Part shown: positions 22,393 through 46,304 of the stretch, piece after piece | Layout: every line of letters starts with the position of its first letter | Numbering within the stretch: position 1 is the first letter of the stretch | NCBI RefSeq assembly: GCF_004123835.1 | Contig: NZ_MZMU01000024.1 | Location: 1 to 64,000 of the forward strand | Direction of reading: 5' to 3' | From: Rhizobium leguminosarum | GTDB lineage: Bacteria > Pseudomonadota > Alphaproteobacteria > Rhizobiales > Rhizobiaceae | DNA length: 64,000 bases | The notes under the pieces: generated by a model | Database searches by the model: none | Seen by the model: only the letters and a program-made list of their open reading frames with translations | Told to the model about the DNA's origin: nothing | Position numbers and translations under genes: made by a program

Positions 22393-22487
22393 AACCGCAA
22401 CTTTCCAATCATGCCCGTTGGATTGCGCGCCTGGCTTTGCCGGGAATAGCAATTCGATGGCCCGAGAAAAACAAGAATAGGTGTTCC

Positions 22488-22784
22488 ATGTCCCGCGTGT
22501 GCGAATTGACCGGCAAGGCCGTCCTGACTGGTAACAATGTCAGCCATGCCAACAACAAGACCAAGCGCCGGTTCCTGCCGAACCTGTGCCAGGTAACGCT
22601 GATTTCCGACGCTCTCAACCAGCGTTATCGTCTTCGCGTTTCGGCTGCCGCTCTTCGCTCCGTCGAGCATCGTGGCGGCCTCGATGCCTTCCTGCTGAAG
22701 GCCAGCGAAAACGAACTGTCGATGCGCGCGCGCCTGCTGCGCCGTCAGATCGCCAAGAAGACCGCTGAAGCCGCTGCTGCGTAA
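22488..22784 (+). CDS. rpmB: 50S ribosomal protein L28
   Basis: A 98-residue basic ribosomal protein of the large subunit. Diagnostic L28 sequence: [35 protein letters not shown] and the [15 protein letters not shown] block. The start at 22488 immediately precedes SRVCELTGK. Monocistronic in appearance: its own promoter upstream and a hairpin with a T-rich tail downstream. Confidence 0.97.
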
Positions 22785-22811
22785 GCTTCTGCCCTTCTTT
22801 CATACGGCTTC

Positions 22812-22847
22812 AAAAGGCTTGAACGGATAATACCGGACAAGCCTTTT
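22812..22847 (+). terminator. Rho-independent terminator after rpmB
   Basis: A ten-base stem AAAAGGCTTG / CAAGCCTTTT with a 16-base loop, 28 bases after the rpmB stop, the 3' arm ending in TTTT. It separates rpmB from the queuosine transporter leader. Confidence 0.65.
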
Positions 22848-22870
22848 GCTTTGCCGGTTTGCTCCTCCAA

Positions 22871-22901
22871 CTGGTGGCATCACCCAGGATAAAAAAATGC
22901 T
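22871..22901 (+). ncRNA. Candidate preQ1-I riboswitch covering the start codon of the queuosine-precursor transporter
   Basis: The leader can fold as a preQ1-I H-type pseudoknot. P1 is CUGG (22871-22874) with CCAG (22884-22887). Loop bases GGCAU (22876-22880) can pair with AUGCU (22897-22901). The A-rich connecting strand GAUAAAAAA matches the L3 of known preQ1-I aptamers. The AUCAC-CC stretch before the P1 3' arm resembles the conserved L2, with C22883 as the expected ligand-contacting base. The Shine-Dalgarno AGGA (22886-22889) overlaps P1 and the AUG lies inside P2, so ligand binding would block initiation. Found by eye; no covariance model was run. Confidence 0.55.
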
Positions 22902-23532
22902 GAAGACCCGCTATACCATCGCCTATGTCGCGCTGATGACGCTCGTCGTCGTCGCCTCCAACTTCCTCGTCCAGTTTCCGCTGAACGCCGAAGTCGCCGG
23001 CATCAACCTTGCCGACATCCTGACCTGGGGCGCTTTCTCCTATCCGATCGCCTTCCTGATCACCGATCTGACCAACCGCCAGTTCGGCCCGCAGGCAGCC
23101 CGCAAGGTCGTCTTTGCCGGCTTCGTCGTCGGCGTGACGCTCTCCTTCTTCACCTCGGTGCCGCGCATCGCCATCGCCTCCGGCTCGGCCTATCTCGCCG
23201 GCCAACTGCTCGATATCGCCGTCTTCAACCGCCTTCGCCGCCAGGCCTGGTGGCGCGCGCCGCTGGTCGGCTCGCTGATCGGCTCGGCGCTCGATACGGT
23301 GATGTTCTTCTCGCTGTCCTTCGCCGCATTCTTCGTCTTCCTCGGCCCGAACGATCCCTTCGCGCTGGAAGCAGCCCCCGTCCTCGGCGTCTTGGCCACC
23401 GAGGCTCCGCGCTGGATTTCCTGGGCGATCGGCGATTTCGCCGTGAAGATGATCGTCGGCCTCGTCATGCTGCTGCCTTATGGCGCGCTGATGAGTGTGC
23501 TGCGGCCGATGCAGGCTGCTCGCGCCAGCTAA
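22897..23532 (+). CDS. yhhQ: Queuosine precursor transporter, YhhQ/VUT family
   Basis: Inner-membrane importer of queuosine precursors (preQ0/preQ1 in characterised members) for tRNA queuosine. 211 residues with about six hydrophobic helices. Family blocks: NFLVQFPL, LTWGAFSYPIAFLITDLTNR (the conserved DxTNR motif) and the PLVGSLIGSALDTVMFF segment. The start at 22897 has AGGA seven bases upstream, embedded in a preQ1-I-like fold. That regulatory element independently supports the substrate. Confidence 0.88.
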   Translation: MLKTRYTIAYVALMTLVVVASNFLVQFPLNAEVAGINLADILTWGAFSYPIAFLITDLTNRQFGPQAARKVVFAGFVVGVTLSFFTSVPRIAIASGSAYLAGQLLDIAVFNRLRRQAWWRAPLVGSLIGSALDTVMFFSLSFAAFFVFLGPNDPFALEAAPVLGVLATEAPRWISWAIGDFAVKMIVGLVMLLPYGALMSVLRPMQAARAS

Positions 23533-46227: not shown

Positions 46228-46304
46228 TGGTTGCGGAGGGACGATTTGAACCTTAGGCCTCTTGGCTACGAGCCAAGCGAGCTACCGGGCTGCTCTACTC
46301 CGAC
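46228..46304 (-). pseudogene. Degenerate initiator-tRNA-like sequence with anticodon CGT
   Basis: On the minus strand, GAGCAGCCCGGTAGCTCG (D arm), loop CTCGTAG and GGTTCAAATC (T loop) with the CCGCAACCA end follow alphaproteobacterial initiator tRNA-fMet closely. The anticodon reads CGT instead of CAT. The T stem has several mismatches, and the outer acceptor pairs do not match (GTCGGAG against CTCCGCA). D and anticodon stems remain perfect. Most likely a decayed copy; function as a tRNA is doubtful. Confidence 0.6.

Follow-up and report, generated by a model that had tools for sequence, protein, structure and literature searches.

The start codon of the queuosine-precursor transporter gene yhhQ in the window (the whole 64,000-nucleotide stretch of Rhizobium leguminosarum DNA analyzed here) lies within a 30-nt element that is very probably a translational OFF preQ1 class I riboswitch, a start-codon-sequestering relative of type III; preQ1 as the ligand, its binding, and the direction of control are what we infer from the sequence. 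The element spans positions 22871-22900 and reads CUGG-U-G-GCAU-CA-C-CCAG-GAUAAAAAA-AUGC, with 26 bases before the AUG and, at its 3' end, the yhhQ AUG followed by one base of codon 2. The loop between the two P1 strands is UGGCAUCAC. In the numbering used here, position n of the crystallized Escherichia coli construct corresponds to window position 22869+n, and positions 7-9 are the first G and then the GC of GCAU. The features are as follows.

22871-22874, forward strand: P1 5' strand CUGG, positions 2-5; identical in 80/80 loci (best 80 of 347 relatives) and in 90/90 elements of the family.
22875-22876, forward strand: L1, comprising U6, which every counted element has, and position 7, which is G or U according to loop class and G in the window.
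22877-22880, forward strand: P2 5' strand GCAU, positions 8-11, which can pair with AUGC; position 8 covaries with position 31.
22881-22883, forward strand: L2, comprising two variable bases (12-13) and C14 (22883), the putative ligand-pairing specificity base, constant in the best 80 of 347 relatives.
22884-22887, forward strand: P1 3' strand CCAG, whose AG is shared with the Shine-Dalgarno sequence AGGA at 22886-22889.
22888-22896, forward strand: L3, the A-rich linker GAUAAAAAA; A27 (22896) is a putative ligand contact, a role taken from the sections of PMC10622847 available.
22897-22900, forward strand: P2 3' strand AUGC, the yhhQ start codon and base 1 of codon 2; in frame in 80/80 loci (best 80 of 347) and in 84/87 family leaders.
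22897-23532, forward strand: yhhQ, queuosine-precursor transporter of 211 amino acids, the putative controlled gene (PF02592, TIGR00697).

According to the proposed mechanism, plentiful preQ1 would sit between P1 and P2, forming a pair with C14 and being recognized by U6 and A27. The bound ligand would stabilize an H-type pseudoknot whose P2 has AUG plus the next base as its 3' strand and whose P1 takes part of the Shine-Dalgarno sequence for its own 3' strand. Initiation of yhhQ by 30S subunits would then be blocked, and the import of queuosine precursors would drop when preQ1 suffices. An earlier note on this DNA had proposed a preQ1-I-like pseudoknot enclosing the start codon, and its coordinates and main pairing were right by sequence: P1, the loop cytosine offered as ligand base (constant in 80/80 of the best 80 of 347 relatives), the A-rich linker, the AGGA that overlaps P1 and the start codon inside P2 are all where it had placed them. 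The proposal itself appears well founded in view of family conservation, covariation in P2, two-sided changes relative to E. coli and the retained pocket bases, each presented below.

The product of yhhQ is a Vut_1/YhhQ protein, in agreement with the transporter named in the note; it scored above the cut-offs of Pfam PF02592 and TIGR00697 and below the curated cut-off of NCBIfam NF008406. The same genome contains queF and tgt. The upstream neighbor is rpmB (22488-22784), which was located within 1.5 kb of yhhQ in 80/80 loci (best 80 of 347), in 10/10 UUC loci (loop classes are defined below) and in 25/28 loci of a further set (L084-L111, 27 of 28 from other families), and in 0/19 E. coli-type loci. 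Scans of 22400-23000 for sigma-70 promoters and terminators found none. An inverted repeat, AAAAGGCTTG...CAAGCCTTTT, with inner CGG/CCG, lies between rpmB and yhhQ at 22812-22847 and looks terminator-like by eye; it was absent from the output of the terminator scan, which had a loop limit of 8.

To assess conservation, we compared the loci coding for YhhQ relatives (best 80 of 347). The element was present in 80/80 of these loci, in frame with yhhQ in each, and its columns were constant save for the two variable L2 bases and three single-base indels. From 10 to 30 bases upstream of it, information content stayed below 1.1 bits in every column but one, at 1.29. The hexamer CTCCAA, directly 5' of the element (22865-22870), was kept in 65-78/80 sequences per column within the Rhizobium clade (best 80 of 347) and was not conserved among UUC leaders; without ligand, the RNA could fold so that this hexamer pairs with the Shine-Dalgarno GGA. 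Of the 2050 ATGs that the window has on its two strands, a strict descriptor (4-pair P1, U6, CAU/AUG P2, C14, and AAA preceding the AUG) matched a single one, that of yhhQ; it matched none of 14688 ATGs in 468 kb from 140 other loci, the yhhQ start region being set aside. The R. leguminosarum genome itself contains a single copy of the element pattern at up to 3 mismatches and no match to the reversed pattern. The laboratory strain Rhizobium johnstonii 3841 shares this element (L002). These data confirm that the element is real, beyond chance.

The element was found throughout the Rhizobiaceae. A yhhQ gene was present in 189/199 genomes of the family, and the element pattern, at up to 2 mismatches, in 341/394; the reversed pattern gave 0 among the matches listed, and one genome (G1023) carried two copies of the element. 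The 53 pattern-negative genomes include two with indel-bearing elements (G190 and G191, leaders L173 and L181) and two that had no yhhQ match either (G193 and G220). For a family-wide sample, 89 leaders, mostly one per genus, were drawn from the matches listed and supplemented with L105, L114 and L115; the element was present in 90 of these 92 leaders and absent from L183 and L224. The element was not found outside the family, either in leaders of the order, in a model search of Alphaproteobacteria or in a pattern search of Pseudomonadota. The order-wide set comprised 86 genomes with a yhhQ match, of which 70 leaders were read and 16 left out. No match to the element model was obtained in 65 of the 70, among them the leader of a 1.5-Mb Rhizobiaceae genome (G148), and the other five were element-bearing Rhizobiaceae. 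Model R1 returned only noise across 288 other Alphaproteobacteria (289 with the source genome). Its matches in 31 other genomes (E<=0.01) reached at best 26 bits versus 52 for the window; in the 29 of these genomes that were inspected, none had yhhQ inside the 1.5-kb flanks, and two matches have CUGGUGGCAUUACCCAG but lack the A-run and AUG. Seven CAU-type pattern matches outside the Rhizobiaceae lack an AUG at the A-run. An open pattern matched 68 of 398 Pseudomonadota genomes; the 19 matches beyond the class that were inspected all continue with AAAAAGG and lie directly 5' of a yhhQ sharing 56-92% identity with the E. coli one. These 19 loci should be gammaproteobacterial, following PMC10622847.

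On sequence, the nearest relative of the element is preQ1 class I type III, a type reportedly defined by McCown et al. in 2014. PMC10622847 describes the riboswitch of E. coli yhhQ as a crystallized preQ1-I type III RNA and states that the type occurs almost exclusively in gammaproteobacteria. The E. coli leader, UUGGG-UUC-CCU-CA-C-CCCAA-...-AAAAAGG, precedes the same gene, and its 30-nt crystal construct aligned with the rhizobial element with zero insertions. Both share the order and length of P1 (2-5/15-18), L1, P2 (9-11/28-30), L2 (12-14) and L3, and in both the 3' strand of P2 lies inside the initiation region. The pocket bases U6 (the ligand-contacting U of the E. coli structure as given in PMC10622847), G5-C15, C14 and A25-A27 are kept in Rhizobium, as is G4-C16; at the ceiling base, A13 in E. 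coli, part of the UGG leaders have C or U instead. Within P2 9-11/28-30 the sole difference is the middle pair, C10-G29 in E. coli and A10-U29 here, by which the AAGG of the Shine-Dalgarno sequence becomes the AAUG of the start codon. Thus, P2 is CAU/AUG in Rhizobium and ties up the start codon, whereas CCU/AGG in E. coli ties up the Shine-Dalgarno sequence. Furthermore, the loop is UGG here, with a fourth P2 pair to codon 2, versus UUC in E. coli; P1, as CUGG/CCAG, extends into the Shine-Dalgarno sequence; and the linker is shorter than the natural E. coli linker.

As for class membership, the element has the two broad marks of class I, namely, an H-type pseudoknot in which the P1 loop pairs past an A-rich linker, and a U after the P1 5' strand with a C before the P1 3' strand (80/80, best 80 of 347). 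Of the marks of type III, it has the position 5' of yhhQ and the AC before the P1 3' strand (A22882 C22883; CC or UC in some relatives), while AAUG at 22896-22899 stands in place of the AAGG of the P2 3' strand and UG in place of UU after the P1 5' strand (UU occurs in 44/90 family elements). Because AAGG and UU are lacking, we did not class it as type III; it would work like type III, and the most fitting name for it is a class I variant of the start-codon kind.

When 13 E. coli-type sequences were aligned with 11 rhizobial ones, all selected by hand, 99.4% of the structure cells were paired, compared with at most 58.3% for slid structures. Two-sided changes occurred at pairs 2-18, 3-17 and 10-29, and the number of two-sided cells was 30, versus 12.5 in shuffled alignments, of which 0/500 reached it; the number of pairs with a two-sided change showed no excess over shuffles (490/500). 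Since the changes at 3-17 and 10-29 split only the two groups, each may be a single event. The pocket bases bear on whether the same pseudoknot is tuned to another 7-deazaguanine, such as preQ0, instead of preQ1, which we consider unlikely. The available text of PMC10622847 reports that the pockets of E. coli and T. tengcongensis bind preQ0 as well, more weakly, and that the E. coli YhhQ transporter prefers preQ0; the pocket could also be changed by G7, in the loop classes that have it, and by base 13, which varies. Against this, the E. coli type III RNA prefers preQ1 ~138-fold (PMC10622847, same sections), and the pocket contacts named above are kept in Rhizobium.

Within the family, P1 and P2 9-11 are invariant, so no covariation could come from P1 and the within-family test depends on positions 8 and 31. 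The constancy of CAU among the 90 elements is by construction because CAU belongs to the family scan pattern, although the 89 leaders had been fetched without a CAU criterion. The loop at positions 6-8 falls into classes, and these were associated with base 31 (90 elements; Fisher p 7e-11 and 5e-7, kinship ignored): base 31 was C in 41/41 UGG leaders, G in 5/5 UGC leaders, and A, C, T and G in 20, 17, 7 and 0 of the 44 UUC leaders. Codon 2 of the 41 UGG leaders encodes Leu (19), Gln (11), Arg (8) or Pro (3), and base 32 is T, A, G or C in the same numbers; in this class base 31 is conserved and the codon-2 residue is not. The five-pair P2 of the earlier note thus held for four pairs, which are conserved in the UGG class, and lost the fifth, G22876-U22901, which is not kept as base 32 varies. 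The covariation that the note had sought in aligned leaders was likewise seen at P2 8-31 and not in the invariant P1. Base 13 was A in 43/44 UUC leaders, the remaining one having a longer L2, and U13 was present in one UUC element (G993); C8 of UUC leaders may act as in E. coli, on the U11-A28 pair.

Kinship was taken into account with a tree of 59 YhhQ proteins lacking the six N-terminal residues (L307 and 58 proteins of scan-positive loci), in which 22/56 inner branches were well supported. Loop class changed at least 7 times on this tree. Base 31 changed 0 times in the 27 UGG rows versus 9 times in the 27 UUC rows, and the codon-2 residue changed at least 13 times among UGG rows. A test on independent pairs yielded 4 pairs and was not significant alone, and 15/500 column shuffles reached the observed within-family covariation score, which is weak alone. 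A ligand-free explanation, in which the region is a conserved protein-binding site, a small-RNA target or a plain ribosome-binding region, would suit an element that spans the Shine-Dalgarno sequence and start codon, the usual place of such sites, and the conserved CTCCAA adjoining it in the Rhizobium clade (best 80 of 347). We nevertheless judge it very unlikely, given that CUGG/CCAG and CAU are not required for translation alone, base 31 tracks base 8 and not the amino acid, and the element resembles, position for position, a metabolite-binding RNA of known structure that precedes the same gene.

Three leaders differ in their layout. The P2 AUG was the best start in the yhhQ frame in 84/87 leaders, in five of them narrowly, and was out of frame in L203, L236 and L241 (whole genes L304, L307 and L308), where the yhhQ-frame AUG lies 13 nt downstream; for this reason, base 31 is outside codon 2 in 3/5 UGC leaders. 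In these three, the P2 strand AUGGA places GGA at Shine-Dalgarno distance from the downstream AUG, and P1 lacks its usual AGGA, having CCAGCC or CCAGCG instead. The shifted layout corresponds to one change on the 59-row tree (fork support 96/57). The out-of-frame P2 AUG could be a short upstream start or merely part of the Shine-Dalgarno sequence. The CCAGCC form was also seen in related genomes, e.g., G981, G1027 and G1095.

Considering the whole family, we think it likely that these RNAs represent a fourth, Rhizobiaceae-wide subtype of class I, in which the initiation codon senses the ligand, the base before AUG contacting preQ1 and the A of AUG serving as the ceiling. In this subtype UGG-type pairing would dictate the first base of codon 2, the start-codon version would differ from the Shine-Dalgarno version by one compensatory pair, and a 13-nt start shift would have returned one lineage to the Shine-Dalgarno layout.

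In searches with Rfam, nothing in the window reached the gathering score for preQ1, and the check proposed in the note, a search of the leader with RF00522, produced no match at E<=10. RF00522 also failed on the crystallized E. coli type III RNA and on three further E. coli-type sequences; as the E. coli riboswitch is missed too, its negative result does not discriminate. The one RF00522 match elsewhere in the R. leguminosarum genome (14.5 bits, E 9.3) was rejected, all 14 control genomes having matches at that level. Energy folding, which cannot show pseudoknots, gave no signal in the leader, with energies like those of shuffled sequences (z 0.10 and -0.17). Alternatively, the leader would be a thermometer or a constant brake formed by a simple hairpin, either CAG-AU/AU-CUG, which covers the Shine-Dalgarno sequence, or GGUG-GCAU-CACC; both appear in minimum-energy folds of the longer window leader. 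This explanation is extremely improbable in view of the shuffle-like energies and of the family leaders: the first hairpin requires CUG as codon 2, which varies (L, Q, R, P), and the second requires G7 and CA at 12-13 and is broken in UUC leaders and in the AC and CT variants.

The start-codon pseudoknot can also be set beside other riboswitches. It shares with preQ1-I types I and II the H-type pseudoknot, the specificity C before the P1 3' strand and the A-rich L3; those types have larger loops, and their P2 uses the first Shine-Dalgarno bases or acts on transcription, unlike the Rhizobium element (PMC11625349, available part). In riboswitches such as Vibrio vulnificus add and the ileS T-box, the start codon is likewise hidden in the OFF state, there by a sequester hairpin that covers the ribosome-binding site and AUG in a separate expression platform (PMC10907184, available part), whereas in Rhizobium the AUG would form a strand of the aptamer core. 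Titles and abstract openings of the literature on preQ1, yhhQ, rhizobia and start-codon-sequestering riboswitches held no description of such an element. For translational control by preQ1, the accessible part of PMC11625349 lists burial of the Shine-Dalgarno sequence, in part or in whole, and indirect occlusion, and notes that switches lacking this sequence can escape searches that depend on it, naming the discovery of such switches as a challenge. In the Rhizobiaceae, a family of mostly soil- and plant-associated bacteria, P2 takes up the start codon in place of the Shine-Dalgarno sequence, and the metabolite could close yhhQ at its first codon. The exchange of a single base pair can turn a switch from the ribosome-binding site to the start codon, and the UGG leaders show that the identity of a codon base can be set by an RNA fold.

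Sinorhizobium needs queuosine genes for symbiosis, and the HeLa-cell effect of its queC and queF mutants was restored by added preQ1 (PMC3568095, in the portion available, where a term search found neither yhhQ nor riboswitch). The response of these mutants indicates that such bacteria take up preQ1, and with the need for queuosine in symbiosis, it gives the control of precursor uptake a testable setting. Elsewhere in the window, ARAGORN placed a tRNA-Thr(CGT) at 46228-46304 on the minus strand, which is weak, at 30.6 bits versus the Rfam cut-off of 29.
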